Assembly (NCBI RefSeq): GCF_000585995.1
Contig: NZ_CP007410.1
Location: 2,693,430 to 2,757,429, forward strand
Direction: 5' to 3'
Source: Pseudomonas brassicacearum
GTDB taxonomy: Bacteria > Pseudomonadota > Gammaproteobacteria > Pseudomonadales > Pseudomonadaceae
Length of the DNA stretch: 64,000 bases
Part shown: in pieces, positions 12,167 through 43,908 of the stretch
Layout of the letters: each line of letters opens with the position of its first letter
How positions within the stretch are numbered: the first letter of the stretch is position 1
Program-made: the position numbers and the translations under genes
The notes under the pieces: model-generated
What the model was told of the DNA's origin: nothing
The model's input: only the letters and a program-made list of their open reading frames with translations
Database searches by the model: none

Positions 12167-12180
12167 GGAAAAAATATTCC
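12167..12180. promoter_or_regulatory. Candidate IolR operator upstream of iolC
   Basis: GGAA-AAAATA-TTCC is a perfect GGAA-N6-TTCC palindrome in the 313-bp iolR-iolC gap. An AT-rich stretch follows to about 12210 and probably holds the iolC promoter. The rest of the gap shows a hairpin (AGGGC...GCCCT, about 12019-12046) in the iolR leader and no gene. Confidence 0.65.
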
Positions 12181-12304
12181 ACGTAAAAAATTTATAGAAT
12201 AATTATTGATTGTTGCCCGCGGCTCGTTTTAGTCTGCATCCACCAAGAGCGTTGGCGCCGGTTCTGGCGGCAAGCGCAGGCTGATAAAAATAACAGGAGC
12301 CAGC

Positions 12305-14242
12305 ATGGGCCAGACTCGTTTTGCCAGTGGGCGTCAATTGGATGTGATCTGCCTGGGACGCCTGGGCGTCGACCTTTACGCGCAGCAAGTCGGAGCGCGC
12401 CTGGAAGATGTGTCGAGCTTCGCCAAATACCTGGGCGGTTCGTCGGCCAACATCGCCTTCGGTACTGCACGACTGGGCCTCAAATCGGCGATGTTGAGCC
12501 GGGTCGGGGACGACCACATGGGCCGCTTCCTGGTGGAGTCCCTGGCGCGCGAGGGCTGCGATGTCCGCGGCATCAAGGTCGATCCTGCACGGCTCACGGC
12601 GATGGTTCTGCTGGGGATCAAGGACCGGGAAACCTTTCCCCTGGTGTTCTACCGAGAAAATTGCGCCGACATGGCGTTGCGCGCCGAAGACATCGACGAA
12701 ACCTTCATTGCCTCCAGCAAGGCGCTGCTGATCACCGGCACGCATTTCTCGACCGAAAGCGTCTACCAGGCCAGCACCCAGGCCCTGGCTTACGCCGAGA
12801 AACACCACGTCAAACGCGTGTTGGACATTGACTACCGCCCGGTGCTCTGGGGCCTGGCGGGCAAGGCTGATGGAGAAACCCGTTTCGTCGCCGACCAGAA
12901 AGTCAGCCAGCACGTGCAAAGCATCCTGCCGCGTTTCGACCTGATCGTCGGCACCGAAGAAGAATTCCTCATCGCCGGCGGCAGTGAAGACCTGCTGACC
13001 GCGCTGCGTACCGTACGCTCGCTGACGCCGGCGACCCTGGTGGTCAAGCTCGGTCCGCAGGGTTGCACGGTGATCCACGGCGCCATCCCGGCCCGGTTGG
13101 AAGACGGCGCCCTTTATCCTGGCGTTCGGGTCGAAGTCCTGAATGTACTGGGTGCTGGTGATGCGTTCATGTCGGGCTTTCTCGCCGGTTGGCTGGAGGA
13201 CGCCAGCGATGAACGCTGCTGCCAATTGGCTAATGCTTGCGGTGGCCTGGTGGTGTCGCGCCATGCCTGTGCCCCGGCGATGCCGACCCGGGCTGAGCTC
13301 GATTATCTGTTCAAGAGTCCGGTGCCGATTACCCGGCCGGACCAGGACGCCATGCTGCAGCGGCTGCACCAGGTCAGCGTGCCGCGCAAGGCCTGGAAAG
13401 AGCTGTTCATCTTCGCCTTCGACCATCGCTGGCAACTGGTGGAACTGGCCCAGAAGGGCGGTCGCGACCTGAGCTGCATCGGCGAACTCAAGCAATTGTT
13501 CATCCAGGCGGTGGAGCGGGTCGAAGCCGACCTGCAGCGCCAGGGCGTCGAGGCTGATGTGGGTCTGCTGGCCGATCAACGTTTCGGCCAGGATTCGCTG
13601 AACGCCGCCACTGGGCGTGGCTGGTGGGTGGCGCGGCCGGTGGAAGTCCAGAATTCGCGGCCGCTGGCGTTCGAACACGGGCGCTCCATCGGCAGCAACC
13701 TGATCGCCTGGCCCCAGGAACAGATCATCAAATGCCTGGTGCAATTTCATCCCGATGACGAACCGCTGCTGCGCCTGGAGCAGGAGGCGCAACTGATGGG
13801 GCTGTACAAGGCGTCCCAGGTCAGCGGCCATGAATTGCTGCTGGAAGTCATTCCGCCCAAGGACCACCCATCACCGCACCCGGACGTGCTGTATCGCGCC
13901 CTCAAGCGCCTCTACAACCTGGGTATCTTCCCAGCGTGGTGGAAGATCGAAGCCCAGAGTGCGGACGAATGGAAACAGCTCGATGAGTTGATTCAACAGC
14001 GCGACCCGTATTGCCGCGGCGTGGTGTTGCTGGGCCTCAACGCCCCGGCCGCCGCCCTGGCCGAAGGGTTCCGCCAGGCCAGCCAGAGCAGCACCTGTCG
14101 CGGATTTGCCGTGGGCCGTACGATCTTCCAGGAGCCAAGCCGGGCCTGGCTGGCCGGGGAAATTGATGATGAAACGCTGATCCGGCAGGTGCAGGGCCGG
14201 TTTGTGGAATTGATCGAGGCGTGGCGTGCTGCCCGGAGTTAG
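12305..14242 (+). CDS. iolC: IolC: 5-dehydro-2-deoxygluconokinase fused to a DUF2090 aldolase-like domain
   Basis: This bifunctional cytoplasmic enzyme phosphorylates 2-deoxy-5-keto-gluconate and probably also splits the phosphate to malonate semialdehyde and dihydroxyacetone phosphate. Residues 1-330 are a PfkB ribokinase-like domain, with YLGGSSANIAFGTARLG near 42-58 and the catalytic NVLGAGDAFMSGF near 279-291. Residues from about 345 to 640 form a DUF2090 domain, beginning KELFIFAFDHRWQL. The total of 645 residues is about twice that of Bacillus IolC, where the aldolase IolJ is a separate protein. CAGGAG precedes the ATG. It is the first gene of the inositol operon; a REPIN separates it from iolE. 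Confidence 0.93.
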   Translation: MGQTRFASGRQLDVICLGRLGVDLYAQQVGARLEDVSSFAKYLGGSSANIAFGTARLGLKSAMLSRVGDDHMGRFLVESLAREGCDVRGIKVDPARLTAMVLLGIKDRETFPLVFYRENCADMALRAEDIDETFIASSKALLITGTHFSTESVYQASTQALAYAEKHHVKRVLDIDYRPVLWGLAGKADGETRFVADQKVSQHVQSILPRFDLIVGTEEEFLIAGGSEDLLTALRTVRSLTPATLVVKLGPQGCTVIHGAIPARLEDGALYPGVRVEVLNVLGAGDAFMSGFLAGWLEDASDERCCQLANACGGLVVSRHACAPAMPTRAELDYLFKSPVPITRPDQDAMLQRLHQVSVPRKAWKELFIFAFDHRWQLVELAQKGGRDLSCIGELKQLFIQAVERVEADLQRQGVEADVGLLADQRFGQDSLNAATGRGWWVARPVEVQNSRPLAFEHGRSIGSNLIAWPQEQIIKCLVQFHPDDEPLLRLEQEAQLMGLYKASQVSGHELLLEVIPPKDHPSPHPDVLYRALKRLYNLGIFPAWWKIEAQSADEWKQLDELIQQRDPYCRGVVLLGLNAPAAALAEGFRQASQSSTCRGFAVGRTIFQEPSRAWLAGEIDDETLIRQVQGRFVELIEAWRAARS

Positions 14243-14261
14243 ACATTGTGAATACTGAACC

Positions 14262-14350
14262 TGTGGGAGCGAGCTTGCTCGCGATAGCGGACTGATAGTT
14301 GACAACCAGTTGCCTGATCCACCGCTATCGCGAGCAAGCTCGCTCCCACA
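14262..14350. repeat. REPIN-type paired palindrome, family A (GCGAGC subtype), inside the iol operon
   Basis: Inverted TGTGGGAGCGAGCTTGCTCG copies flank about 40 bp between iolC and iolE. This lies within what should be one transcript. Confidence 0.88.
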
Positions 14351-14400
14351 GGGTTTATCGCCGCCTTCAATGGTTATGAAAAAACAATAAAGGTGCAGCC

Positions 14401-15291
14401 ATGCCCGCTATTCGAATTGGCATCAACCCGATTTCCTGGAGCAACGACGACCTGCCTTCCCTCGGCGGTGAAACGCCGTTGAGCACGGCGCTGAGCGAAG
14501 GCAAGGCCATCGGCTACGAAGGTTTCGAACTCAACGGCAAGTTCCCCAAGGACGCCAAGGGTGTCGGCGATGTGCTGCGGCCTTATGACCTGGCGCTGGT
14601 CTCCGGCTGGTATTCCAGCCGCCTGGCCCGGCGCTCGGCGGCGGAGGAGATCGATGCGATTGCCAGCCACGTCGAGCTGTTGGCGCAGAACGGGGCCAAC
14701 GTGCTGGTGTACGGCGAGGTCGCCGATTCCATTCAGGGCCAGCGCATTCCATTGATCGAACGGCCGCGTTTTCACACCGACGCAGCTTGGCAAACCTACG
14801 CCGAAAAACTCACTGAGCTGGCGCGTTTCACCTTGTCCCACGGCGTGCGCCTGGCCTATCACCACCACATGGGCGCATATGTCGAGTCGCCCGCGGACAT
14901 TGACAAACTGATGGCCCTGACCGGCAGTGAAGTGGGCCTGCTGTTCGACTCGGGTCACTGCTACATGGGCGGCGGCGAACCGCTGCAGGTCTTGCGCAAG
15001 CACATCGAACGGGTCTGCCATGTGCATTTCAAGGACGTGCGCAAACCCGTGGTGCAACTGGCGCGCAACAACCTCTGGAGCTTCCCCGACTGCATCATCA
15101 ACGGCACCTTCACCGTGCCGGGGGACGGCGACATTGATTTCGCCGCGTTGCTGGACGTGCTGTTGGCCGCCGATTACCAAGGCTGGCTGGTGGTGGAAGC
15201 CGAGCAGGACCCCGCCGTGGCACCGAGTTATGCCTACGCCAAGAAGGGCTACGACACCCTGCGTGCCTTGCTGGAAAGGAGTGCGTCATGA
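14401..15291 (+). CDS. iolE: IolE: myo-inosose-2 dehydratase
   Basis: IolE dehydrates 2-keto-myo-inositol (scyllo-inosose) to the trihydroxycyclohexanedione used by IolD. The 296-residue protein is a xylose-isomerase-like TIM barrel and needs a divalent metal. The N-terminal IGINPISWSNDDLPSLGGE and metal-site motifs YHHHMGAYVES, FDSGHCYMGGG (about 182-192) and CHVHFKDVR are characteristic. Its stop overlaps the iolB start by 4 bp (ATGA), so the two are translationally coupled. The operon order iolC-iolE-iolB-iolA is common in fluorescent pseudomonads. Confidence 0.95.
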   Translation: MPAIRIGINPISWSNDDLPSLGGETPLSTALSEGKAIGYEGFELNGKFPKDAKGVGDVLRPYDLALVSGWYSSRLARRSAAEEIDAIASHVELLAQNGANVLVYGEVADSIQGQRIPLIERPRFHTDAAWQTYAEKLTELARFTLSHGVRLAYHHHMGAYVESPADIDKLMALTGSEVGLLFDSGHCYMGGGEPLQVLRKHIERVCHVHFKDVRKPVVQLARNNLWSFPDCIINGTFTVPGDGDIDFAALLDVLLAADYQGWLVVEAEQDPAVAPSYAYAKKGYDTLRALLERSAS

Positions 15292-16097
15292 GCCTGTTGA
15301 TCAAAAGCCATCCCGACGGCCAGACCATGGTCCAGTTGCCCCATGGCGAATTGGAATACGTCGGGTTTGCCGCCTATCGCTTGAGCCTCGGTGAAACCCT
15401 GCCGGTGGCCGCCGGCGACAAGGAATTGTGCCTGGTGCTGCTCAGCGGGCGCATCAGCCTCAAGGGCGAAGCGCCGGGGCAGGGCGCGTTCGATTGGGAC
15501 AACCTCGGGGATCGCCAGTCGGTGTTCGAGGACAAATCACCCTATGCTGCGTACCTGCCGCCCGGCAGCCAGGCCCAGGTGACCGCCCTCAGCGATGTAC
15601 AGATCGCCGTGTGTGCCGCACCGAGTTCGGCCCAAAACAAATACGGCCCACGTTTGATCCGTCCCGACAGCATGAAGCGCAGTGTGCGGGGAAAAGGCGC
15701 CAACACCCGCTATGTCTGCGACATCCTGCCCGATAGCGAGCCGGCTCATTCGCTGCTGGTGGTGGAGGTGCGCACGCCGTCAGGTCACTCGTCGAGCTAC
15801 CCGCCGCACAAACACGACACCGATGACCTGCCGCACCAGAGCTTCCTGGAGGAAACCTATTACCACCAGGTCAACCCGTCCCAAGGGTTCGTGTTCCAGC
15901 GGGTCTATACCGACGACCGCAGCATCGACCAGGCCATGGCGGTGGAGAACAGCGACCTGGTGGTGGTACCCAAGGGCTATCACCCGGTCAGCGTGCCCTA
16001 TGGGTATGAGTCGTACTACCTGAACGTCATGGCCGGCCCGAAGCGCGTCTGGCAGTTCCATAACGACCCGCAGCACAGTTGGCTGCTCGACCTCTGA
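15288..16097 (+). CDS. iolB: IolB: 5-deoxy-glucuronate isomerase
   Basis: IolB isomerises 5-deoxy-glucuronate to 2-deoxy-5-keto-gluconate, the substrate of IolC. The 269-residue protein belongs to the KduI/IolB bicupin family. The metal-binding stretch SSYPPHKHDTDDLPHQS lies near residues 166-182, followed by EETYYHQVNPSQGF and the C-terminal NDLVVVPKGYHPVSVPYGYE-like segment. The start overlaps iolE by 4 bp, and iolA follows 34 bp downstream. No signal peptide is seen; the enzyme is cytoplasmic. Confidence 0.95.
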   Translation: MSLLIKSHPDGQTMVQLPHGELEYVGFAAYRLSLGETLPVAAGDKELCLVLLSGRISLKGEAPGQGAFDWDNLGDRQSVFEDKSPYAAYLPPGSQAQVTALSDVQIAVCAAPSSAQNKYGPRLIRPDSMKRSVRGKGANTRYVCDILPDSEPAHSLLVVEVRTPSGHSSSYPPHKHDTDDLPHQSFLEETYYHQVNPSQGFVFQRVYTDDRSIDQAMAVENSDLVVVPKGYHPVSVPYGYESYYLNVMAGPKRVWQFHNDPQHSWLLDL

Positions 16098-16131
16098 ATG
16101 AATGCCACACCTTCCATGGAGAACAAGAACA

Positions 16132-17634
16132 ATGAGTAACGCCCCGGTAGTAGGCCATTACATCAACGGTCGAGTGCAGGACAGCGACAGCGCACGCTTG
16201 AGCGATGTCTTCAACCCGGCCACCGGCGCGGTGCAGGCCCGGGTCGCCCTGGCCGAACCGGGCATTGTCGATGCGGCGGTGGCCTCGGCGCTGGCGGCAT
16301 TTCCGGCCTGGTCCGAGCAGTCGTCCTTGCGCCGCTCGCGGGTGATGTTCAAGTTCAAGGAACTGCTCGATCGGCATCACGATGAATTGGCGCTGATCAT
16401 CAGCCGGGAGCACGGCAAGGTGTTGTCCGACGCCCACGGCGAAGTCACCCGGGGCATCGAGATCGTCGAGTACGCCTGCGGTGCGCCGAATCTGCTCAAG
16501 ACCGATTTCAGCGACAATATCGGTGGCGGCATCGACAACTGGAACCTGCGCCAGCCCCTGGGCGTGTGCGCCGGGGTCACACCGTTCAATTTCCCGGTGA
16601 TGGTGCCGCTGTGGATGATCCCCTTGGCACTGGTCGCCGGTAACTGCTTCATCCTCAAGCCTTCGGAGCGTGATCCGTCCGCCAGTTTGTTGATGGCCCG
16701 GTTGCTGACTGAAGCCGGGTTGCCGGACGGTGTGTTCAACGTGGTCCAGGGCGACAAAGTGGCGGTGGATGCACTGTTGCAGCACCCGGACATCGAAGCG
16801 ATTTCCTTTGTCGGCTCCACGCCCATCGCCGAATACATCCACCAGCAAGGCACCGCCAACGGCAAACGTGTCCAGGCCCTGGGCGGGGCGAAGAACCACA
16901 TGATCGTCATGCCCGACGCCGACCTCGACCAGGCGGCGGATGCGTTGATTGGCGCCGCCTACGGCTCGGCCGGCGAGCGTTGCATGGCGATCTCCATTGC
17001 GGTGGCGGTCGGTGATGTAGGTGATCAATTGATTGCCAAATTGCTCCCCCGAATCGACCAGTTGAAGATCGGTAATGGCCAGCAGCCCGGTACCGACATG
17101 GGGCCGCTGGTCACCGCCGTGCACAAGGCCAAGGTGGAAGGCTTCATCGACGCCGGTGTCGCCGAGGGTGCCCGACTGATCGTCGACGGTCGTGGCTTCA
17201 AGGTGCCCGGCGCCGAGCAGGGGTTCTTTGTCGGGGCGACGCTGTTCGACCAGCTCACCGCCGAGATGAGCATCTACCAGCAAGAGATCTTCGGTCCGGT
17301 GCTGGGGATCGTTCGCGTGCCGGATTTCGCCAGCGCCGTGGCCCTGATCAATGCCCATGAATTCGGCAACGGGGTGTCGTGCTTCACCCGTGACGGTGGT
17401 ATCGCCCGAGCGTTTGCCCGCAGCATCAAGGTCGGCATGGTGGGGATCAACGTGCCGATTCCGGTGCCCATGGCCTGGCACTCCTTCGGTGGCTGGAAAC
17501 GCTCGCTGTTCGGCGATCACCACGCCTACGGCGAAGAAGGCCTGCGTTTCTACAGCCGTTATAAAAGCGTGATGCAGCGCTGGCCCGACAGCATCGCCAA
17601 GGGGCCTGAATTCAGCATGCCGACTGCCCAATAA
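16132..17634 (+). CDS. iolA: IolA/MmsA: CoA-acylating malonate/methylmalonate semialdehyde dehydrogenase
   Basis: This NAD-dependent enzyme converts malonate semialdehyde plus CoA to acetyl-CoA and CO2, the last step of inositol breakdown. It has 500 residues and belongs to the aldehyde dehydrogenase superfamily. The catalytic cysteine lies in [17 protein letters not shown] at residue 284, and the MMSDH-specific segment [17 protein letters not shown] is near 147-163. The ATG at 16132 is preferred to an in-frame upstream start (16102) because the conserved N-terminus VGHYINGR begins here. The enzyme may also serve valine degradation if no other copy exists, which cannot be judged from this window. 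Confidence 0.93.
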
Positions 17635-17668: not shown

Positions 17669-18490
17669 ATGAACAAGCCCCTGCGTTTTGCCTTGAACCG
17701 AATGGTTGCCCCGCGCCTGTCACTGCCCGAATTCATTGACCTGGCCCTGGCGTTGAAAACCGATGCCATTGAGATCCGCAACGATCTGAAGGGTGTCGAG
17801 ATCGAAGACGGCATGCCGCCCGGCCGGGTGCGCGAGTTATGTGAGGAAAGGGGCATCAAGGTGCTGTCGATCAATGCCCTTTACCCTTTCGACGTGTGGA
17901 ACGAGGAGCGTCGTGCCCAAGCGGTGAGGCTGGCCGACTATGCCCGCGAATGCGGTGCCGAAGGGTTGGTGATGTGCCCGCTCAACGACCGCACCGACCC
18001 GCGCAGTGAAGCTGAGCGCGCCGCAGGGCTGCGGTCGGCCCTCAGCGAACTGGCGCCGATCCTGCGGGCCTTCGGCATCTACGGTTTCATCGAACCCCTG
18101 GGCTTCGAAGAATGCTCGCTACGCCGCAAGCGCACCGCCGTGGACGCGATCCAGGCCATTGGCGGGCTGGATGTGTTCCGCCTGGTGCATGACACCTTCC
18201 ACCACCATTTGGCGGGTGAGCAGGAATGCTTTCCCGAGTTGACCGGGCTGGTGCACATCTCCGGCGTCGAAGATGCCCAGGCGCCCTTGGCGACCATTCG
18301 CGACGGCCACCGGGTGCTGGTCGGCGAGGCTGACATCCTGGGCAATGCCAGGCAGATCGAGGCGTTGCGGGCCGGGGGGTATGAGGGCTACCTGTCCTTC
18401 GAACCGTTTGCCGAGAGCGTTCATGAACTGGCTGATATCCGCCAGGCGTTGGGGGCGAGTATGAATCACCTGCGCAATCCCCAGGCCTGA
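17669..18490 (+). CDS. iolI: TIM-barrel sugar isomerase, probable inosose isomerase IolI
   Basis: This is a 273-residue xylose-isomerase-like TIM-barrel protein. Bacillus IolI interconverts keto-inositols, which allows entry of D-chiro-inositol and other isomers, and has the same size (about 278). Metal-site motifs include [14 protein letters not shown] near residues 140-153, [13 protein letters not shown] near 172-184 and HISGVEDAQ near 195-203. The start has GGAGG about 9 bases upstream (CCGGAGGGAG). The gene lies inside the iol operon between iolA and iolD, which strongly links it to inositol. IolH or a hydroxypyruvate-isomerase-like activity is an alternative name, so the symbol is tentative. 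Confidence 0.8.
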
Positions 18491-18608: not shown

Positions 18609-18656
18609 GGAGATTTGGGCCAGCTGCAAGATGTGCATTCCAAAAAAGGTGCAAGC

Positions 18657-21628
<2,972 letters not shown>

Positions 21629-21802: not shown

Positions 21803-22855
21803 ATGCGAATCGGGCTAGTCGGCTACGGCAAGGGTGGGCGGTTCTTTCACGCGCCGCTGATCAGCAGTCTGCCGGGGGCTACGTTCGTCGGCGTGGTGAC
21901 CCGGTCCGCCGAGCGCCGCCAACAATTGGCCAGCGATCACCCGCAGGCCCAGGCCTTCGACACCCTCGAACAATTGGTGGCGGCCGGGGTTGATGCGGTG
22001 GTGGTGTCCACGCCTTTGGACGGTCGCCCGGCCATTGTGATGCACGCCATCGAACTCGGCGTGGCGGTGGTCAGCGACAAACCGTTCGCCCCTGACGCCG
22101 CGCAGGCCGAGGCGATGGTGTTGGCCGCCGAACGTCGCAACGTGCCTTTGAGCGTGTACCAGAACCGCCGCTGGGATTCGGATTTCCTGACCCTGCGCAA
22201 GCTGCTGGCCTCCGGGGCTCTCGGGCAAGTCATTCGTTTTGAGTCGAGTGTCGAACGTTATTCGCCAACCTCGGTAGGCAAAGGCAGCGGTGGCGGATTC
22301 CTGCGCGACCTCGGCAGCCATCTGGTGGACCAGGCACTGCAATTGTTCGGGCCGGTGACCAGGGTCTACGCCGAACTGGACTACCGGCAGCCAGGCCAGG
22401 TGTTCGACAACGGCTTCTTTATGTCTTTGACCCATGCCAGTGGCGTGATCTCCCACCTGAGCGGCAATTGCGTGCAAAACGCGCCGCGCCCACGTTTCCG
22501 GGTCAACGGCACCCAGGGTTGCTACACCGTCGAAGGTTTGGATGGCCAGGAAGCCCAGGCGCTGGCGGGGTTGAGCCCGGCGACCGAGGGCGAGCGCTGG
22601 GGCGCCGAAGAACATCGGCGCTGGGGCTGGTTCGAACACGGCACCGAGCGCGAGCGGGTGACCTCGGAGCGGGGCTGCTGGATCGAGTTCTACCAACGTC
22701 TGCAAACCGCGTTGCAGAGCGCCGGCCCTCTGCCGGTGGAGGCCCGTGATGCACTGGCGACCACGCGCATTCTGGACGCGGCCAGGCAGAGCGCCGAGCA
22801 GCGCGAAGTGCTGCTATTGACCACGCCTGTGGGTCATGGAATAAAAAACGAATAA
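21803..22855 (+). CDS. Gfo/Idh/MocA oxidoreductase, possible scyllo-inositol dehydrogenase
   Basis: This is a 350-residue NAD(P)-dependent sugar or polyol dehydrogenase. The Rossmann motif is GLVGYGKGGRFFHAPLI at the N-terminus, and the catalytic segment reads VVSDKPFAPDAAQAE, with DKP in place of the usual EKP. This form is shared with the YdgJ/YvaA (IolW, NADP-dependent scyllo-inositol 2-dehydrogenase) group. The C-terminal domain contains GGGFLRDLGSHLVDQALQL. AAGGAG precedes the ATG. It ends the iol gene run just before an IolR-like site and the ABC importer. Reduction of scyllo-inosose to scyllo-inositol, or the reverse, is the likely role but not proven. Confidence 0.85.
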   Translation: MRIGLVGYGKGGRFFHAPLISSLPGATFVGVVTRSAERRQQLASDHPQAQAFDTLEQLVAAGVDAVVVSTPLDGRPAIVMHAIELGVAVVSDKPFAPDAAQAEAMVLAAERRNVPLSVYQNRRWDSDFLTLRKLLASGALGQVIRFESSVERYSPTSVGKGSGGGFLRDLGSHLVDQALQLFGPVTRVYAELDYRQPGQVFDNGFFMSLTHASGVISHLSGNCVQNAPRPRFRVNGTQGCYTVEGLDGQEAQALAGLSPATEGERWGAEEHRRWGWFEHGTERERVTSERGCWIEFYQRLQTALQSAGPLPVEARDALATTRILDAARQSAEQREVLLLTTPVGHGIKNE

Positions 22856-22876
22856 AATTCTAAAATCAGTTGATAT

Positions 22877-22890
22877 GGAAAATATTTTCC
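22877..22890. promoter_or_regulatory. Candidate IolR operator upstream of the ABC importer
   Basis: GGAA-AATATT-TTCC is a second perfect GGAA-N6-TTCC palindrome, 20 bp after the preceding stop and 311 bp before the binding-protein gene. It suggests that the importer has its own IolR-controlled promoter. The remaining 346-bp gap shows no other clear signal except a short frame at 22998. Confidence 0.65.
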
Positions 22891-22997
22891 AATAAAGTCG
22901 ATTCCAGGTTACCGACAATCCTGTCCGCCTCCCGCCAAGCGCGCCTTGAACGGATGAAGGACGAAACAAAAACAAGAAACACAGCTAGGTACCGTCG

Positions 22998-23201: not shown

Positions 23202-24128
23202 ATGAAGACCAAGACCCGTATCGCCTCGCTGGCCCTGTCGTTGATGCTCACCAGCGGCGCTGCCCTGGCGGACTTGAAGATCGGTGTCAGCATGTCCCAG
23301 TTCGATGACACCTGGCTGACTTACCTGCGCGAATCCATGGACAAGAAAGCCAAGTCCCTGCCGGACGGCGTCACCCTGCAGTTCGAAGACGCCCGCAGCG
23401 ACGTGGTCAAGCAACTGAGCCAGGTGGAAAGCTTCATCAGCCAGAAGGTCGACGCGATCATCGTCAACCCGGTGGACACCGCCGCGACCCAACGCATCAC
23501 CAAGGCCGCCGTCGCCGCCGGTATCCCGTTGGTCTACGTCAATCGCCGCCCCGACGATCTGAAACTGCCGGCAGGCGTGGTCACCGTTGCCTCCGACGAC
23601 CTGGAGGCCGGTCGCATGCAGATGCAATACCTGGCTGAAAAAATGGGCGGCAAGGGCGACATCGTGATCCTGCTGGGTGACTTGGCCAATAACTCCACCA
23701 CCAACCGCACCAAGGGCGTCAAGGACGTGCTGGCCAAGTACCCCAACATCAAGATCGAGCAGGAGCAGACCGGCACCTGGTTGCGCGACAAGGGAATGAC
23801 CCTGGTCAACGACTGGCTGACCCAGGGGCGCGAGTTCCAGGCGGTGGTGGCCAACAACGACGAAATGGCCATTGGCGCCGCGATGGCCCTCAAGCAAGCG
23901 GGCAAGGAGAAGGGCAGCGTATTGATTGCCGGGGTCGATGGCACGCCGGATGGCTTGAATGCGATCAAGAAAGGCGACATGGCAGTCTCGGTGTTCCAGG
24001 ACGCCAAGGGCCAGGCCGATGGATCGATCGACACGGCGGTGAAAATGGTCAAGAAACAGCCGGTCGAGCAGGCCGTCTGGGTGCCGTACCGCTTGATCAC
24101 GCCGGAAAACGTCGATCAGTTCAAGTGA
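23202..24128 (+). CDS. Sugar (probably inositol) ABC transporter substrate-binding protein
   Basis: This is a periplasmic binding protein of the ribose/galactose type (periplasmic binding protein 4, LacI-like fold), with 308 residues. A signal peptide covers about residues 1-23 and ends LTSGAALA before [10 protein letters not shown]. Sugar-binding features are the Phe-Asp pair in [22 protein letters not shown] near 115-121 and [15 protein letters not shown] near 243-257. The start has GTGGAGAAA close upstream. It heads a three-gene importer directly after the iol operon and behind a candidate IolR site, which points to myo-inositol as ligand, as for IbpA in Caulobacter. Ribose or another sugar is not ruled out. 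Confidence 0.88.
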
Positions 24129-24207
24129 CGTTCAACGCGTCCTCGGTCCCACCACAACAATAAACAGGCAAGGTCGCACGCCGACCTTGCCGAGGGAGTA
24201 CCTGATC

Positions 24208-25761
24208 ATGTTCGCTTCAGCGACTGCTTCGAGCGCCCCGGCGAGGATTGTCCCGCCGGACGTATTATCTGAAGAACCGTACCTGCTGGAAGTCGCTAAT
24301 GTCAGCAAAGGCTTTCCCGGCGTGGTGGCCCTGTCCGATGTACAACTGCGGGTCCGTCCAGGCTCCGTGCTGGCCTTGATGGGTGAAAACGGTGCCGGAA
24401 AATCGACCCTGATGAAAATCATCGCCGGCATCTACCAGCCGGACGCCGGCGAACTACGCCTGCGGGGCAAACCGGTCACGTTCGACACGCCCCTGGCGGC
24501 GTTGCAGGCCGGCATTGCGATGATCCATCAGGAGCTGAACCTGATGCCCCACATGAGCATCGCCGAGAACATCTGGATTGGCCGTGAACAACTCAACGGC
24601 CTGCACATGATCGACCACGGCGAAATGCACCGCTGCACTGCCAGGTTGCTGGAACGCCTGCGTATCAACCTCGACCCCGAGGAGCAGGTGGGCAACCTGA
24701 GCATTGCCGAGCGGCAGATGGTCGAGATCGCCAAGGCCGTGTCCTACGACTCCGACATTCTGATCATGGACGAACCGACCTCGGCCATCACCGAGACAGA
24801 AGTCGCCCATCTGTTCTCGATCATTGCCGACCTCAAGTCCCAGGGTAAGGGCATCATCTACATCACCCACAAAATGAATGAGGTGTTTGCCATCGCCGAT
24901 GAAGTGGCGGTGTTTCGCGACGGCGCCTACATCGGCCTGCAACGGGCCGACAGCATGGACGGCGACAGCCTGATTTCGATGATGGTCGGGCGCGAACTGA
25001 GCCAGTTGTTCCCGGTGCGGGAGCAACCCATCGGCGATTTGGTGCTGTCGGTGCGCGACCTGAGCCTGGACGGCATCTTCAAAGGGGTGTCGTTCGACCT
25101 GCATGCCGGGGAAATCCTCGGCATCGCCGGGTTGATGGGCTCGGGCCGGACCAACGTGGCCGAGGCGATTTTCGGCGTGACCCCGAGCACGGGCGGTGAA
25201 ATCTTCCTGGACGGCCAACCGGTGCGCATCAGCGACCCGCACATGGCCATCGAGAAGGGTTTTGCCCTGTTGACAGAGGATCGCAAGCTCAGCGGCTTGT
25301 TCCCCTGCTTGTCGGTGCTGGAAAACATGGAAATGGCCGTGCTGCCCCATTACGTCGGCAACGGCTTCATCCAGCAGAAAGCCCTGCGCGCCTTGTGCGA
25401 GGACATGTGCAAGAAACTGCGGGTCAAGACGCCGTCCCTGGAGCAGTGCATCGACACCCTGTCCGGCGGCAACCAGCAGAAGGCGCTGTTGGCGCGCTGG
25501 CTGATGACCAACCCGCGCATCCTGATCCTCGACGAGCCGACCCGCGGCATCGACGTCGGCGCCAAGGCCGAGATCTACCGACTCATTTCCTACCTCGCCA
25601 GCGAAGGCATGGCGGTGATCATGATTTCCTCGGAGCTGCCGGAAGTACTGGGCATGAGCGACCGGGTCATGGTGATGCACGAGGGCGATCTGATGGGCAC
25701 CCTCGACCGCAGCGAAGCGACCCAGGAACGAGTGATGCAACTGGCTTCGGGCCTGTCCTGA
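24208..25761 (+). CDS. Sugar ABC transporter ATP-binding protein (double ATPase)
   Basis: This is the cytoplasmic ATPase of the importer, with two fused nucleotide-binding domains (517 residues). The first has Walker [14 protein letters not shown] near residues 58-70 and Walker [12 protein letters not shown]. The second has the degenerate [16 protein letters not shown] in place of Walker A, a signature [15 protein letters not shown] and Walker [16 protein letters not shown]. This layout is normal for RbsA/MglA-type proteins. The ATG at 24208 is chosen because GAGGGAG lies 10 bases upstream; a TTG at 24187 is in frame but lacks a site. It lies between the binding-protein and permease genes, in the order typical of sugar importers. 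Confidence 0.93.
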
Positions 25762-25795
25762 TGCTCGTCAGTCCAGATAAAAAAGGTAAGTGGAT

Positions 25796-26818
25796 ATGAA
25801 CGCGATATTGGAAAACAAACCCGCGGCAGCACCGACCAGGCCCCGGCGGCGTCTGCCGACGGAGCTGAGCATCTTCCTGGTGCTGATCGGCATCGGCCTG
25901 GTGTTCGAAATGTTCGGCTGGATCATGCGCGACCAGAGTTTCCTGATGAACTCCCAGCGCCTGGTGCTGATGATCCTGCAAGTGTCGATCATCGGCTTGC
26001 TGGCCATCGGCGTGACCCAGGTGATCATCACCACCGGTATCGACCTGTCGTCCGGCTCGGTGCTGGCGCTGTCGGCGATGATCGCCGCCAGCCTGGCCCA
26101 GACCTCGGACTTCGCCCGGGCGGTATTTCCTTCCCTGACGGACCTGCCGGTGTGGATCCCGGTGGTGGCGGGGCTTGGCGTGGGGCTGCTGGCCGGCGCG
26201 ATCAACGGCAGCATCATCGCCGTGACCGGCATCCCACCTTTTATTGCCACCCTCGGCATGATGGTCTCGGCCCGTGGCCTGGCGCGTTACTACACCGAAG
26301 GCCAGCCGGTGAGCATGTTGTCCGATTCCTATACCGCCATCGGCCATGGCGCCATGCCGGTGATCATCTTCCTGGTGGTGGCGGTGATTTTTCACATCGC
26401 CCTGCGCTACACCAAGTACGGCAAATACACTTACGCCATTGGCGGCAACATGCAGGCAGCGCGCACGTCGGGGATCAACGTCAAGCGCCACTTGGTGATT
26501 GTCTACAGCATCGCCGGTCTGCTGGCGGGGCTGGCCGGGGTGGTGGCCTCGGCGCGGGCGGCGACCGGTCAGGCCGGCATGGGCATGTCCTATGAGCTGG
26601 ACGCGATTGCGGCGGCGGTGATTGGCGGGACCAGCCTGGCGGGCGGTGTGGGGCGCATCACCGGCACGGTGATCGGCGCGCTGATCCTTGGAGTGATGGC
26701 CAGCGGCTTTACCTTTGTCGGCGTCGACGCCTACATCCAGGACATCATCAAAGGGCTGATCATCGTGGTGGCGGTGGTCATCGACCAGTACCGTAATAAA
26801 CGCAAACTCAAGCGCTGA
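25796..26818 (+). CDS. Sugar ABC transporter permease
   Basis: This inner-membrane permease of the RbsC/AraH type has 340 residues and about nine to ten membrane segments. Family motifs are TTGIDLSSGSVLALSAMIAA near residues 82-101, GIPPFIATLGMM, and the cytoplasmic-loop GGNMQAARTSGINVKR. A short hydrophilic N-terminus rich in Pro and Arg precedes the first segment. AAAAGGTAAG upstream of the ATG at 25796 is a usable ribosome site. This completes the inositol-type importer, and the gene is followed by a GC hairpin that may end the transcript. Confidence 0.92.
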   Translation: MNAILENKPAAAPTRPRRRLPTELSIFLVLIGIGLVFEMFGWIMRDQSFLMNSQRLVLMILQVSIIGLLAIGVTQVIITTGIDLSSGSVLALSAMIAASLAQTSDFARAVFPSLTDLPVWIPVVAGLGVGLLAGAINGSIIAVTGIPPFIATLGMMVSARGLARYYTEGQPVSMLSDSYTAIGHGAMPVIIFLVVAVIFHIALRYTKYGKYTYAIGGNMQAARTSGINVKRHLVIVYSIAGLLAGLAGVVASARAATGQAGMGMSYELDAIAAAVIGGTSLAGGVGRITGTVIGALILGVMASGFTFVGVDAYIQDIIKGLIIVVAVVIDQYRNKRKLKR

Positions 26819-26840
26819 ACGCCTTGGTATTGCGACAATG

Positions 26841-26863
26841 CGCCACGCCTGACCCGCGTGGCG
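26841..26863 (+). terminator. GC-rich hairpin after the importer operon
   Basis: CGCCACGC-CTGACCC-GCGTGGCG is a perfect 8-bp stem, 22 bp after the permease stop. It is followed only by the interrupted T stretch TTGCCATTTGTCTTCTT, so termination may be weak. Confidence 0.55.
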
Positions 26864-27730: not shown

Positions 27731-29338
27731 ATGGCGACAGACGGATCTCTGGCGGGTGCGGTGCCGGCCTCGGTGCCTGTGACAAAAAGCATGGCGCGTT
27801 GGTTGACGCCGACCTTGCAGAGTCTCGCCCTGTCTTTGCTGCTGTGCGGCATGGCCTTGGGCGGCTGGTCGCTGTACCTGGGCCTGCCCTTGGTGATGCT
27901 CATCGTCTGGTTGCCGCGCCTGCGCTCGCGCATGAGCGCGACCTCTGCGCCGGCCACGGTCGACAAACTGGCTGAGCTGACCCGCGACTTGTCCTACACC
28001 ACTAGTCATAACGCGTTGTCGGCGGCCGGCGTTGCCTATTCGGTCAAGCAACTGGCCGGCAAGGTCCAGTCGCAACTCGATGCGGCGGCGCAAATCGTCA
28101 GCAATGCCGAATCGATGATCGCCACCGAACAGGCCACCTCGCAACTCAGCCAGCAAGCCCTGGGCGCCGCCAGCGAGGCCCATCGCAGCAGCGTGGCCGG
28201 GCGCAGTGAACTGGTGGAGTCCATCAGCCGCATGCACCAGCTCAGCCAGCGCGCCAACGACAGTCGCGAGTTGATCGAGGCCTTGAGCGTGCGCAGCGAT
28301 GAAATCCAGCGGGTCAGCCTGGTGATCCAGTCGATCGCCAGCCAGACTAACCTGCTGGCACTGAACGCGGCCATCGAAGCGGCGCGGGCCGGTGAGCATG
28401 GCCGTGGGTTCGCGGTGGTGGCCGATGAGGTACGCGGCCTGGCCGGGCGCACGGCGGCGGCCACTGGCGAGGTGGGGGTGATGGTGGCGGATATCCAGCA
28501 GCGCACCGCGCAGGTGGTGGAGCAGATCCGTCAATTGGCCACCGACCTGGACAGCGGAGTGCAACAGGTCGAGCACACTGGCCAGCATCTGGAAAACATT
28601 GCCCGGCTCGCAGAAGGGGTCGAGAGTCAGGTCAGCGCCATCGCCCAGGGCACCGATACCAACCGCGAACAACTCGACAGCCTGTTCCATGCCATCGAGC
28701 AAATGCGCGGCGACCTGTCCATCAGCGATCAGCAGACCCAGCGCCTGGCCGAAGCGGCGGTGCAGATGGAAGGCCAGGCCGAAACCATCAGCGAACGCCT
28801 GGCCGAAGTGGGCCTCGACGATTATCACCAACGGGTCTATGACCTGGCCCGGGAAGGGGCGAGCCAGATCGCGGCGCAGTTCGAAGCGGACATCGACCAG
28901 GGCCGTGTCAGCTTGGAAGATCTGTTCGACCGTAATTACCAGGCCATCCCCAACACCCAGCCCGCCAAGTACCAGACCCGTTTCGACCGTTACACCGATC
29001 AGGTGTTGCCGGCGATCCAGGAACCGTTGCTCGCCCGGCACGAGGGCCTGGTCTTCGCGATTGCCTGCACCCAGCAGGGTTACGTGCCCACCCATAACAA
29101 GGTTTTCAGCCAGCCACTGACTGGCGATCCGCAGGTGGACACGCTGAATAACCGGACCAAGCGCAAATTCTCCGATCGCACCGGGATTCGCTGCGGCAGC
29201 CACCAACAGCCGGTGCTGCTGCAGACCTACACCCGCGACACGGGGGAGTTGATGCACGATCTCTCCGTGCCGATCATGCTCAAGGGGCGTCATTGGGGTG
29301 GTTTGCGGCTGGGCTACAAACCCGAGAAGCCGCGCTAG
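27731..29338 (+). CDS. Methyl-accepting chemotaxis protein with C-terminal extra domain
   Basis: This chemoreceptor of 535 residues signals to CheA/CheW. A short N-terminus is followed by a closely spaced hydrophobic pair (about residues 33-62, [20 protein letters not shown] and onwards), so there is almost no periplasmic loop. The signalling tip [20 protein letters not shown] is near residue 200, with [15 protein letters not shown] after it. After the receptor helices, roughly 160 residues form another domain (about 375-535) with [40 protein letters not shown] and [10 protein letters not shown]. Cytosolic sensing at the C-terminus is therefore likely. The ATG at 27731 fits better than the GTG at 27716. 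The ligand is unknown. Confidence 0.88.
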
Positions 29339-40499: not shown

Positions 40500-41075
40500 A
40501 TGAGCCATACAGTGCACAAAGAAAATGGCCAGCGGGCCTCCGTCCTGCAACACGTCAGCCAGAATGTCCGACGCCTGCGGCACGCCGCGCAGCTCAGCCA
40601 GACCGCGCTGGCGGAACGCTCCGGGGTCAGCCGGCGGATGCTGGTGGCCATCGAGGCCGGGGAAAAGAACGTCAGCCTGACCACGCTTGACCGGGTCGCC
40701 GAAGCCTTGGACGTGGCCTTCAGCGACTTGATCCAGGCCCCCGACGCCCGCGATCCGAGCCGCATCAACGAACTGGCCTGGGCCGGCATTATTCCCGGCA
40801 GCAAAGCCGTATTGCTGGCCAAAGCCACCGCCAGCCGCGAAGTCGAACTTTGGGAATGGCGCCTGGAACCCGGCGAGCATTACCCTAGCGAACCCGACGC
40901 CGACGGTTGGAGCGAGCAGCTCTATGTCTTCGAGGGCTGCCTGACCCTGCTGTTGGGCAGCGAGGAGCGCCGCATTGGCGCCGGTGAGTTTTTCATGTTC
41001 GCCAGCAACCAGCCCCATGCCTATCGCAACGATGGGCCGGTGGCGGCGAGATTCGTCCGCAACGTGGTGATTTGA
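40500..41075 (+). CDS. XRE-family regulator with C-terminal cupin domain
   Basis: This is a 191-residue cytoplasmic regulator. Residues 18-75 are a Cro/CI helix-turn-helix (VRRLRHAAQLSQTALAERSG and SRRMLVAIEAGEKNVSLTTL). Residues about 115-188 form a cupin (WEWRLEPGEHYPSEPDADGW, LYVFEGCLTLLLG, FASNQPHAYRNDG). In this family the cupin senses a small ligand. It diverges from the DMT exporter gene across a perfect palindrome and is followed at 18 bp by an FAD protein, with which it is probably cotranscribed. No ribosome site is visible before the ATG. Confidence 0.88.
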   Translation: MSHTVHKENGQRASVLQHVSQNVRRLRHAAQLSQTALAERSGVSRRMLVAIEAGEKNVSLTTLDRVAEALDVAFSDLIQAPDARDPSRINELAWAGIIPGSKAVLLAKATASREVELWEWRLEPGEHYPSEPDADGWSEQLYVFEGCLTLLLGSEERRIGAGEFFMFASNQPHAYRNDGPVAARFVRNVVI

Positions 41076-41092
41076 TGCCTGGGGAGAACGGT

Positions 41093-42523
41093 ATGGACAC
41101 AGCGCTGGAGCGACGGGGCCGCGGCCTCATCCGCGAAGCCGATATCCTGATCATTGGCGGCGGCCTGAGCGGTGCCATGCTGGCCGCGCAGTTGCTGCGC
41201 CTGCCGGGTCGGCGCGAGGTGCTGATCGTCGAGCCGCGCAGTGAACTGGGCCGGGGCGAAGCCTACAGTGCCGTGGAACTTGGCCACACCTTGAACGGCA
41301 ACGCGGCGCGCATGAGTGTCGACCCGGACAACGCCGATGACCTTACCCAATGGCTCACCGCGTTCATCGAAGCCGGCGGCTGGCCCGAGTCGGATCAACA
41401 GCACGTGCCGATCAGCGAGTTGTTCCCGCCCCGGGGGATATTCGGCCTCTACGTGCAGCAACGCCTGGCCGAGGCTCGCGAGTTGGGCGCACAAAACGAT
41501 TCGACCGCCGAGCACGTGTGCGGGGAAGCCGTGGACCTGCGGCTTGCCGACGATGCCGTGATGGTGACGCTGGACGACGGCCAACTCTTGCGTGGCCGTT
41601 TCGCGGTGCTCGCCACCGGCATGTTCCCGGCGGCGCGCACCCCGCAGACCGAATCCAGCGGCTTGAATGCCGCGGCCCTGGATCCTTGGGATGTGGCTGC
41701 GATGCGCCAGCTCGACCCGCAGTCGACGGTGCTGATCATCGGCTCGGGGCTGACCATGGTCGACGCCGTGGTGTCCCTGGAGCAGGCCGGGCACCGCGGG
41801 CCGATCGAAGTGTTTTCCCGCCATGGCCTGCTGCCCCACGTGCGCCGCCAGCCACCGGCCTGGGTGGATTTCCTCGCTGAAGATCACAGCCTGCGTTCGC
41901 CCCGCCAACTGATGCGTGCCCTGCGTGAGCAATGCCGCCAAGCCCACGCCCTGGGGATCGATTGGCAAGCGCCGCTGGACACCGTGCGCGCGCACATCGG
42001 GCGCTTGTGGAACCAGGCCAGCGACGTGCAGCGCCGACAGTTCGTGCGGCATGTGCGGCCGTGGTGGGAGAGTCATCACCATCGCTCGCCACCGTTGAGC
42101 GCGGAGCTGGTGGCGCGTTTGCATGGGGAAGGGCGGTTGCGGATTCAGGCGGCGTCGTTCAAGGGGCTGGCGGCGTCCCCCGATGGCTCGGTGGGTATTC
42201 GCATCCGTCGCCGGGGTGAGGCAGGACTGGAAGTGGTGCTGGGCGCCGCGCTGATCAACTCCAGTGGCATTGAATATGACTGGCGTCGGGTTGCACGGCC
42301 GTTGCCGCAACAACTGCTGGCCCGCGGTCTGATCCAGCCGGGGCCGCTGGCCCTGGGTATTGCCGCCCGTGCTGACGGTGCGGTGCTGGACGCTGAAGGC
42401 AAGCCAGCCAGCCGCCTGTTCGCCATGGGCCCGCCGCTGCGGGGGATGTGGTGGGAAAGCACCGCCGTGACCGACGTGGCGAGCCAGGCCAAGGCGCTGG
42501 CGGCGCGGTTGGTTGAGTTGTAA
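41093..42523 (+). CDS. FAD/NAD(P)-binding protein
   Basis: This flavoprotein-like protein of 476 residues has an N-terminal Rossmann motif, DILIIGGGLSGAMLAAQLLR, near residues 17-36, and a second glycine motif, TVLIIGSGLTMVDAVVSLEQ, around 210. It resembles the FAD-NAD(P)-binding family (NAD_binding_9) rather than classical reductases. The ATG at 41093 is preferred: GGGGAG lies 7 bases upstream, while starts at 41072 and 41075 overlap the preceding stop. It follows the XRE-cupin gene. Substrate unknown; related proteins act in hydroxylation or oxidation of amino acid-like molecules, but this is only a family-level guess. Confidence 0.78.
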   Translation: MDTALERRGRGLIREADILIIGGGLSGAMLAAQLLRLPGRREVLIVEPRSELGRGEAYSAVELGHTLNGNAARMSVDPDNADDLTQWLTAFIEAGGWPESDQQHVPISELFPPRGIFGLYVQQRLAEARELGAQNDSTAEHVCGEAVDLRLADDAVMVTLDDGQLLRGRFAVLATGMFPAARTPQTESSGLNAAALDPWDVAAMRQLDPQSTVLIIGSGLTMVDAVVSLEQAGHRGPIEVFSRHGLLPHVRRQPPAWVDFLAEDHSLRSPRQLMRALREQCRQAHALGIDWQAPLDTVRAHIGRLWNQASDVQRRQFVRHVRPWWESHHHRSPPLSAELVARLHGEGRLRIQAASFKGLAASPDGSVGIRIRRRGEAGLEVVLGAALINSSGIEYDWRRVARPLPQQLLARGLIQPGPLALGIAARADGAVLDAEGKPASRLFAMGPPLRGMWWESTAVTDVASQAKALAARLVEL

Positions 42524-42552
42524 ACCCAACATTCAGATTGACCCCGTCCCCC

Positions 42553-42683
42553 GTGGCGAGGGAGCTTGCTCCCGCTGGGTTGCGAAGCAACCCCAAGAGG
42601 CTGAACGCAATCAACCTGGCACACCAAGGTGAATGGTTTTGGGGCTACTTCGTAGCCCAGCGGGAGCAAGCTCCCTCGCCACA
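42553..42683. repeat. Paired palindrome, family B
   Basis: GTGGCGAGGGAGCTTGCTCC and its inverse flank inner TTGCGAAGCAACCCC and GGGGCTACTTCGTAGCCC stems. It lies between the convergent FAD-protein and Gfo/Idh genes. Confidence 0.87.
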
Positions 42684-42708
42684 AAAGCGGATCAGCGGCG
42701 GGCAGTGA

Positions 42709-43821
42709 CTATTCACTGATTTTCACCCAACGCTGCTCCCTCGCCGCCACCCGAATCGCCGCCGCCAGCCGCTCCACCTCCCAGGCCTCGTCGAAGTCCG
42801 TCCCGCTGCCGCCTTCGCCGGCAAGCGTCATGATCAGTTCCTGCACTTCCAGCGTCTTCAATTCGTTGTAGCCCAACTGGTGTCCGGCGGCCGGGCTGAA
42901 TGCGGCATAGCCGGGCAAGTCCGGGCCGGCCAGCAGACGCTGGAAGCCTGACTGGCCGACGCGACACAGGCGCAGCTCATTGAGCCGTTCCTGATCGAAG
43001 GCCAATGTGCCCAGGGTGCCACTGATCTCGAAACTCAGATGGTTCTTGTAGCCATGCTTGAGCCAACTGCTGCTCACCGTGCCTCGGGCGCCGTTGGCGA
43101 AACGCAGCAGGGCGTGGATCTGGTCGTCCACGGCGATGGCGCGTTGTTCGGCATTGCCGGCGCTGGCAGGGCGTTGGTGATGCACGGTCTGACTGTCGGC
43201 GCACACCGCCTCGACATCGCCCAACAAATGCCGGGCCATGGCCAGCAAATGGCTGCCCAGGTCGGCCAGTGCGCCGCCAGCGTGGGCCGCTTCGCAACGC
43301 CATGACCACGGCGAGGTCGGGTCGGCCATGAAGTCTTCGCTGAATTCGCCCTGGAAGCTGATGATCTGCCCCAGTTCGCCGCGTTGGATCATGTCCCGCG
43401 CCAGTTGGATGATCGGATTGTGCTGATAGTTGTAGCCGACCCGCGTCACTACGCCGGCGGCCCTGGCCGCCTGGCGCATCTGCTCGGCTTGCTCCAGGGA
43501 CACCGCCAGGGGCTTTTCACAATAGACCGGTTTCCCCGCCGCCAGCGCCGCCATGGCCATCGGGAAGTGCAGGTGGTTGGGGGTGGTGATGGCGATCAGG
43601 TTGACCTTGGGGTCGTCGATCAGCTGTTGCCAGTCACTGTGGGCGGTCTCGAATCCCCAGCTTTGGGCGCACTGTCGGGCACGCTGAGGATCGGCGTCGG
43701 CCAGGGCCGCGAGTGTCAGGTTCAGGGGGAGGTCGAACACCGCCTTGGCATTGTGGAACGCCAAGGCATGGGCACGGCCCATGAAGCCGGTGCCAATCAG
43801 ACCGATGCCGAGTTCACGCAT
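42709..43821 (-). CDS. Gfo/Idh/MocA oxidoreductase, possible member of the inositol regulon
   Basis: This is a 370-residue NAD(P)-dependent dehydrogenase. The Rossmann motif is LGIGLIGTGFMGRAHALAFH, and the catalytic segment VYCEKPLAVSLEQAEQM (near residues 97-113) has a normal EKP. The C-terminal domain includes AAHAGGALADLGSHLLAMAR. Upstream of its start lie two GGAA-N6-TTC half-conserved palindromes, 29 bp apart, matching the candidate IolR operators of the iol locus 20 kb away. This suggests oxidation of an inositol isomer or related polyol. The gene is monocistronic as far as can be seen. Substrate specificity cannot be read from sequence. Confidence 0.85.
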   Translation of the reverse strand: MRELGIGLIGTGFMGRAHALAFHNAKAVFDLPLNLTLAALADADPQRARQCAQSWGFETAHSDWQQLIDDPKVNLIAITTPNHLHFPMAMAALAAGKPVYCEKPLAVSLEQAEQMRQAARAAGVVTRVGYNYQHNPIIQLARDMIQRGELGQIISFQGEFSEDFMADPTSPWSWRCEAAHAGGALADLGSHLLAMARHLLGDVEAVCADSQTVHHQRPASAGNAEQRAIAVDDQIHALLRFANGARGTVSSSWLKHGYKNHLSFEISGTLGTLAFDQERLNELRLCRVGQSGFQRLLAGPDLPGYAAFSPAAGHQLGYNELKTLEVQELIMTLAGEGGSGTDFDEAWEVERLAAAIRVAAREQRWVKISE

Positions 43822-43865
43822 GAGAAAGAGCCCTTTGAATTTTTATTTTCAGAAGGGCTATTTAT

Positions 43866-43908
43866 GGAATAAATATTCTCTAATTGCAAATGGTGGAATA
43901 AATATTCA
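43866..43908. promoter_or_regulatory. Tandem IolR-like operators upstream of the Gfo/Idh gene
   Basis: Two copies of GGAATAAATATTC lie at 43866-43878 and 43895-43907, offset by 29 bp. Each fits GGAA-N6-TTC but lacks the final C of the palindromes near iolC and the importer. They are 45-87 bp before the start codon of the minus-strand gene, where an operator would be expected. Confidence 0.55.

Follow-up and report, generated by a model that had tools for sequence, protein, structure and literature searches.

A stand-alone scyllo-inositol-dehydrogenase-like gene as a very probable member of the IolR regulon in Pseudomonas brassicacearum

The window considered here, a 64-kb stretch (64,000 nucleotides) of the Pseudomonas brassicacearum genome (contig NZ_CP007410.1, positions 2,693,430 to 2,757,429 of the forward strand), contains a cluster of genes for inositol breakdown and, outside this cluster, a gene for a further dehydrogenase of the Gfo/Idh family. 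We refer to the latter as the distant gene (42709-43821, minus strand; 370 amino acids). As judged from the comparisons presented below, it very probably acts in the inositol pathway and is under the control of the same repressor as the cluster. All positions are those of the window.

The regulator gene of the cluster, iolR (11068-11991, minus strand), encodes a protein of the RpiR/MurR family with an N-terminal HTH_6 domain (Pfam, 49.2 bits) and a C-terminal SIS domain (80.4 bits), both scoring above cut-off. It is the divergent neighbour of iolC. Among 40 Pseudomonas loci around iolR, 32 show this adjacency, and iolC is missing from the remaining 8. The remaining genes are all encoded by the plus strand. 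They comprise iolC, a kinase/aldolase fusion (12305-14242; NF047869, 1092.7 bits with a cut-off of 600), iolE (14401-15291; TIGR04379), iolB (15288-16097; TIGR04378), mmsA/iolA (16102-17634; TIGR01722), a gene for a xylose-isomerase-like TIM barrel protein (17669-18490; Pfam AP_endonuc_2) that precedes iolD (18615-20588; TIGR04377), and the inositol 2-dehydrogenase gene iolG (20618-21628; NF052679, 566.8 bits with a cut-off of 540), with the four TIGR models also matched above their cut-offs. A second Gfo/Idh protein of the cluster (21803-22855) is YvaA-like: it matches PRK11579 with 185 bits, which is below the cut-off of 330, and its PDB matches include 3gdo and 3gfg, both named yvaA, a protein that we take to be the one renamed IolW. 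The cluster continues with an ATP-binding cassette (ABC) importer of the inositol type (23202-26818), composed of a binding protein (23202-24128), an ATPase (24187-25761) and a permease (25790-26818), which matched the NCBIfam models for sugar ABC proteins below their cut-offs and whose substrate would, from its position in the cluster, be inositol. A previous examination of the letters of this DNA, hereafter the sequence-only reading, had placed the RpiR-type regulator gene next to the importer and the Gfo/Idh gene about 20 kb from the locus. The regulator gene adjoins iolC and not the importer, and the distant gene is indeed separate from the locus, but by about 16 kb when counted from the end of the importer.

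Perfect GGAA-N6-TTCC palindromes occur in the window at 12167-12180 and 22877-22890 only, which is upstream of iolC and of the importer, as is also seen in relatives. The first candidate operator of iolC (TGGAAAAAATATTCCA, 12166-12181, plus strand) is accompanied 29 base pairs (bp) away by a second one with a degenerate right half (12195-12210, plus strand), which overlaps a putative -35 box, TTGATT (12206-12211). At the importer, the first operator (TGGAAAATATTTTCCA, 22876-22891, plus strand) forms the spacer between a putative -35 box, TTGATA (22870-22875), and a putative -10 box, TAAAGT (22893-22898), and the right half of a second operator (22847-22862, plus strand), ATTCTA, lies in register 29 bp upstream of the first, its left half being shifted. 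The distant gene shows a similar layout. Its proximal operator (43865-43880, minus-strand GAGAATATTTATTCCA) falls within the spacer of a putative promoter with the boxes TTGCAA (-35, 43884-43889) and CATAAA (-10, 43861-43866), and its distal operator (ATGAATATTTATTCCA, 43894-43909, minus strand) lies 29 bp from the proximal one. The sequence-only reading had counted these two sites as further copies of the core shared by iolC and the importer. This holds for 12167 and 22877, but the sites at 43866-43879 (GGAATAAATATTCT) and 43895-43908 (GGAATAAATATTCA) each carry one mismatch in the right arm, so that it is not literally true that the same core occurs twice before the distant gene. A possible third site, 29 bp further downstream (TGAAAATAAAAATTCA, 43836-43851, minus strand), may be mere untranslated leader; it was found too degenerate to be claimed, as a match of at least 8 out of 10 was present at this place in 27 of 80 named loci. 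Between the distant gene and the upstream gene for a short-chain dehydrogenase/reductase (SDR), there is a long inverted repeat (43934-44020) with arms of GTGGGAGCGGGCTTGCTCGCGAATGC and its reverse complement, which presumably resembles the repetitive extragenic palindromic elements of Pseudomonas.

One alternative is chance, with AT-rich matches of an ordinary kind near 43866 and 43895 in front of a gene that has nothing to do with inositol. Counts of the core alone lend themselves to this view. The two perfect cores of the window compare with a mean of 0.84 in shuffled sequences, 17 out of 100 of which had two or more, and the 19 cores with one mismatch are not above chance (shuffle mean of 21.9). 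In the whole genome (6.65 Mb, a single contig) the bare core was found at 128 places and a reversed control pattern at 46. With so many matches the bare core is a poor predictor, and it was rejected as a search rule for being too loose. The sequence-only reading had itself named many genome-wide matches as grounds for abandoning its proposal, and this is what a scan with the bare core returns. When a 16-bp consensus was derived from the sites of the window itself, iolC and the distant gene came out as its best genome-wide matches; this is circular and was not used as evidence. The observation as originally worded is thus partly confirmed and weak by itself. What does go beyond chance is the context, namely TGGAA-N6-TTCCA sites that are present in three promoters, are kept across species and have a partner about 29 bp away. 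Together with the co-occurrence and the gene positions described below, this conservation and spacing makes a chance origin of the sites very improbable.

In relatives, the best site upstream of iolC matched TGGAA-N6-TTCCA at 8 to 10 of its 10 positions in 32 out of 32 cases (25 with a score of 10, 6 with 9 and 1 with 8). The site of the first importer operator scored 9 or 10 in 27 of 29 relatives, the other two (L190 and L194) reaching only 7 and having no good match within the searched stretch. With the threshold loosened to 6 out of 10, the commonest offsets of secondary sites were +29 (23 times) and +28 (9 times) in the iolC promoters, and +15 (15), -29 (14) and -28 (11) in the importer promoters. 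It should be noted that the second iolC operator of the window falls below a stricter threshold of 7, at which its iolC promoter shows no pair. The distant gene was examined most broadly. Its closest named relatives by protein, with 95-96% identity, are from P. brassicacearum, P. kilonensis and P. thivervalensis. Among 113 unique upstream regions, that of the window included, 80 had two sites, 29 had one and 4 had none, compared to at least one site in about 2% of shuffled regions of which only the base composition was preserved. The two sites were 29 bp apart in 73 of the 80 two-site regions, 30 bp in 5 and 28 bp in 2. The named loci alone, which are the best 80 of 201 confirmed ones, gave two sites in 63 cases, one in 16 and none in a single case at a contig end. 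Twelve upstream regions with odd start codons were kept in these counts (L038 at a contig end; L200, L201, L203, L204 and L206-L212 with misplaced starts). Two of the four regions without a site are L038 and L201, and in the other two (G149 and G008) the gene comes right after that of the importer permease in the same orientation, where a promoter of its own would be unnecessary. A TTG in the -35 slot was present in 96, and an xATxxA in the -10 slot in 92, of the 109 unique regions that have a site.

We also searched with profiles built from other genomes of the genus. A paired profile of 45 positions, made from 38 of the 51 arrays gathered at iolC and importer promoters and from no promoter of the distant gene, retrieved three places in the P. 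brassicacearum genome at E≤10: the importer (2.9e-8), iolC (2.5e-5) and the distant gene (2.5). It is therefore far more specific than the published core, with three places as opposed to 128. A single-site profile from 24 sites gave the importer (0.006), iolC (0.017), position 679694 (0.57), the distant gene (2.0) and position 4584510 (2.4). As 150 of 476 first-look candidates were scored with the paired profile and 150 of 1747 with the single-site profile, weak places may be missing from both results. When the window was scanned with the filters switched off, the two sites of the distant gene ranked next after the matches at iolC and the importer. Lastly, a profile pooled from 46 arrays, those of the distant gene included, was run with stricter filters on 31 candidates per genome; at E≤0.01 it matched at least 92 genomes, namely the 91 that have the distant gene (see below) and G037.

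The distribution of the distant gene was determined in 199 Pseudomonas genomes, the present one included, with thresholds of E≤1e-120 for the distant gene, at least 78% identity for iolR and E≤1e-150 for a full iolC. The distant gene was found in 91, iolR in 105 and a full iolC in 92 of these genomes. An RpiR match at E≤1e-40 was present in 109 genomes; four of them (G042, G146, G151 and G155, 32% identity) were left out of the 105, and G034, with a match of 97 residues, was kept. All 91 genomes with the distant gene have iolR and 90 of them have a full iolC, the iolC of the remaining one (G051) being shortened. Conversely, iolC occurs without the distant gene in two genomes only, G037 and G129. 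The 13 genomes with iolR and without iolC have no distant gene, and none of them was among the listed matches of the pooled profile. As such promoters do not exist in genomes devoid of iol genes, the co-occurrence seen with this profile holds partly by construction. The position of the gene is also informative: in four genomes (G047, G167, G088 and G105) it follows iolR in the same orientation after a gap of 111-164 bp, with the site retained, and in the above-mentioned G008 and G149 it directly follows the importer permease.

Several of these genomes are arranged in ways worth recording in their own right. Of the 13 genomes with iolR and without iolC, six were examined (L232-L237), and in these iolR adjoins the dksA-like gene and the chemoreceptor gene that are found beside the importer in the window (26818-29338). 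The arrangement looks as though the whole stretch that begins with iolC and ends with the permease had either been lost or never been acquired. G129 (L238) has a divergent iol cluster (iolC identity 65-66%) with no iolR orthologue and no site detected, and this cluster is therefore probably under another regulator. In G044 (L230 and L160), the importer, the dksA-like gene, the chemoreceptor gene and the distant gene lie together about 260 kb from the part from iolR to iolG, which suggests that a rearrangement has split the locus. G073 (L227, at about 4608) and G071 (L229, at about 1654) contain a second sugar-binding protein gene, 56-58% identical to that of the importer. The promoter of this second gene has a similar arrangement, with paired sites of this type. 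The three open reading frames scanned downstream of the one in L229 are not ABC subunits, so that this gene may be a further stand-alone member of the regulon.

These distributions bear on the view that another regulator, recognising a similar AT-rich palindrome, controls the distant gene, and that the gene is linked with inositol through its enzyme function only. The sites of the distant gene favour GAAT-N4-ATTCCA over the perfect palindrome of iolC, and their score with the profile from iolC and the importer is modest, which speaks for this view. However, the spacing of about 29 bp recurs in the iolC and importer promoters, the placement of an operator in the promoter spacer is shared with the importer, and genomes that have iolR and lack iolC have neither the distant gene nor a detected site. 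Moreover, no regulator was found among the flanking genes that were checked, i.e. the gene for an FAD/NAD-binding protein downstream on the opposite strand (41072-42523) and the SDR and APH-type genes upstream (44055-44822 and 44847-45914), and iolR is the adjoining gene in four genomes. We therefore consider a different regulator unlikely. That the distant gene is a further member of the IolR regulon, as the sequence-only reading had proposed, is supported by four lines of evidence that do not depend on the four sites from which that proposal was made: the profile from which the gene's promoters were held out, the sites conserved upstream of it, its co-occurrence with iolR and iolC, and its positions behind iolR or the importer.

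What the product of the distant gene does can be approached through its closest structures. Its best PDB matches are the Paracoccus scyllo-inositol dehydrogenases 5ya8 (317.6 bits) and 6ktj (314.6 bits), followed by 6a3f (267.7 bits), a putative dehydrogenase by its PDB name that we take to be of the levoglucosan dehydrogenase type. Over 354 aligned positions it is 46% identical to 5ya8, the structure of the Paracoccus laeviglucosivorans enzyme. Nine of the ten active-site residues that are named for this enzyme in the available part of PMC5969746, the numbering of which we follow, are kept in the window's protein and in 79 out of 79 orthologues (the 80 named loci less one that is shortened). 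These are the catalytic K106, D191 and H195, the residues R178 and H318 that take part in substrate recognition, and Y135, E165, F17 and L192. In the same alignment iolG keeps 3 of the 10 residues and the second dehydrogenase of the cluster keeps 4. Models for IolG matched the distant gene far below their cut-offs (TIGR04380, 131.7 bits with a cut-off of 355; NF052679, 50.9 bits with a cut-off of 540). The label of its best NCBIfam model, levoglucosan dehydrogenase (NF052479), was rejected at 301.3 bits with a cut-off of 650.

An enzyme controlled by IolR could nevertheless act on another inositol-like or sugar substrate, for example on a chiro-inositol or an L-sugar or, if it works in reverse, on an inosose. 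This alternative concerns the substrate only and is compatible with the regulatory part of the explanation that we prefer. It gains weight from the nearest characterised enzyme, which is reported to oxidise L-glucose and myo-inositol as well (PMC5969746, in the part available), from the fact that the best NCBIfam model is the levoglucosan one, albeit far under its cut-off, from the YvaA-like second dehydrogenase that the cluster already has, and from a cluster gene of P. extremaustralis that the accessible text of PMC11065229 names scyllo-inositol dehydrogenase iolG2. By contrast, all 79 orthologues keep R178 and H318, two residues which, according to that part of PMC5969746, no known inositol dehydrogenase other than the scyllo-inositol enzyme possesses, and the levoglucosan-type 6a3f differs at the positions of H318 and E165 when the alignment is read by eye. 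On balance we regard a different substrate as possible, though somewhat doubtful, and scyllo-inositol as the most likely one.

We propose the following scheme. IolR would bind operators resembling TGGAA-N6-TTCCA, paired about 29 bp apart, at the promoters of iolC, the importer and the distant gene. At the importer and the distant gene one operator would be situated between the putative -35 and -10 boxes, and at iolC one would overlap the putative -35 box, positions at which bound IolR would block RNA polymerase. During inositol breakdown, an intermediate of the pathway would release IolR and all three units would be switched on together; for rhizobial IolR, release by 2-deoxy-5-keto-gluconate 6-phosphate has been reported (Kohler 2011, as cited in the part of PMC8877191 available to us). 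The product of the distant gene would then most likely oxidise scyllo-inositol, and possibly further inositols, and the resulting inosose would feed into the pathway at IolE.

The observations that weigh against this scheme are as follows. Neither site of the distant gene in this genome is a perfect core. The distant gene ranked third with the paired profile and fourth with the single-site profile, and neither of its E values is significant genome-wide; as these scores are insignificant alone, the case rests on conservation and co-occurrence. Furthermore, the two other places retrieved by the single-site profile, near an SDR gene and in a region with DUF6124 and carboxypeptidase genes for 679694 and 4584510, showed no link with inositol. 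The pooled profile was partly trained on arrays of the distant gene, and its hits are not assigned to genes in the individual genomes. The Fisher p-values for the co-occurrence of the distant gene with iolR (6e-42) and iolC (2e-53) ignore shared ancestry. In the importer promoters the offset of +15 is as common as that of -29, so that the pair is less clear there. In Caulobacter crescentus, mutation of the nearer of the two iolC motifs left promoter activity unchanged and only the farther one mattered, as described in the available part of PMC2597717, which weighs against a need for pairs. As for the enzyme, the substrate-binding residue Y163 is F in the window's protein and in all 79 orthologues. 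Finally, the cluster of P. extremaustralis is said to hold a scyllo-inositol dehydrogenase, iolG2 (PMC11065229, in part), in which case the distant gene would encode an additional enzyme of this type or something else, and need not be the only one. With these points taken into account, we still consider it highly likely that the distant gene, taken as a whole, is best explained as a stand-alone member of the inositol regulon that is controlled by IolR and whose product is likely to be scyllo-inositol-oxidising.

Genes for scyllo-inositol dehydrogenases that lie apart from the other inositol genes have a precedent in Bacillus subtilis, which has the two enzymes IolX and IolW; the catabolic gene, iolX, is induced by inositol and located outside the main iol operon. 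Unlike in the present case, iolX is repressed by IolQ, a different regulator, according to the part of PMC5504672 that was available. A dispersed IolR regulon with the GGAA-N6-TTCC core is described for Caulobacter crescentus and its relatives (Boutte et al. 2008, PMC2597717, in the accessible part, as for the comparisons that follow). There, as here, an RpiR-type IolR is encoded next to iolC and members of the regulon are found at separate chromosomal places, the core being located upstream of iolC, idhA and an ABC importer. The two systems differ in that the inositol dehydrogenase gene idhA can be a separate gene in Caulobacter, whereas here iolG is part of the cluster and it is a gene of the scyllo-inositol dehydrogenase type that stands alone. 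Likewise, the two motifs of the Caulobacter iolC promoter (104-119 and 45-60 bases upstream) are 59 bp apart, as compared to 29 bp here. The enzyme itself is like that of Paracoccus laeviglucosivorans (5ya8; PMC5969746, in part) in its catalytic K-D-H and in R178 and H318, and unlike it at Y163, the Pseudomonas protein being known here from its sequence. A further parallel is offered by MurR of Escherichia coli, an RpiR-family tetramer for which the available part of PMC12713135 proposes a bridge between two neighbouring sites, which overlap the -35 and -10 boxes and together cover 47 bp. The pairs found here span 45 bp, and the regulator and the effector are different. By analogy with MurR, IolR might bridge its 45-bp pairs.

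We also looked for the layout across the phylum, where 71 matches to iolC in 68 genomes were covered by two scans, one of 40 regions and one of 30 loci, with two genomes (G500 and G510) remaining unscanned. A site of at least 9 out of 10 was present upstream of iolC in 22 of the 40 regions and absent from 18, with 0.65 expected from shuffles that preserve only the base composition; 13 of the 30 loci had a site and 17 did not, G366 being included in both scans with none. Outside the family of P. brassicacearum, such sites were seen at 22 loci out of 40 in the first scan and at 6 out of 23 in the second, many others lacking them. The spacing of pairs varies by family, with 30 bp mostly in one (f51), 29 bp in two (f45 and f55) and 31 bp in one (f50), and four loci from outside the own family (L277, L289, L290 and L291) have pairs 29 or 30 bp apart. 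The phylum search also gave 28 iolR loci, some but not all of which have the site in their surroundings. It may be that a single IolR layout of two or more palindromes, about 29-30 bp apart and forming a unit of about 45 bp read by an IolR tetramer, runs through the Pseudomonadota. This layout would mark the Pseudomonas inositol regulon with its stand-alone genes (the scyllo-inositol-dehydrogenase-like one, joined in two genomes by that for a second sugar-binding protein), and its loss would accompany that of the catabolic genes even in genomes that retain iolR. The Caulobacter pair at 59 bp would then represent the outer two sites of a three-site array. For this combined picture we see the chances as evenly balanced.

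A literature search outside whose scope most subscription journals lay retrieved no account of a stand-alone scyllo-inositol-dehydrogenase-like gene as a target of IolR, nor of IolR sites paired at about 29 bp, and in the part of PMC9430895 available to us nothing on IolR of Pseudomonas was found. Within the literature searched, the dispersed IolR regulon is therefore known, and the stand-alone scyllo-inositol-dehydrogenase-like member and the layout of pairs at about 29 bp are new. The 13 genomes that have iolR and no iolC provide a natural control for the action of IolR in the absence of its pathway. The present findings also give a proposed role to a Gfo/Idh gene that is carried by 91 of 199 Pseudomonas genomes and for which all matching curated models score below their cut-offs. 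An iol cluster of Pseudomonas is described as being induced by root exudate, with mention of a dedicated repressor, in the accessible part of PMC8079746. In these root-associated bacteria, the inositol regulon probably extends beyond its cluster.

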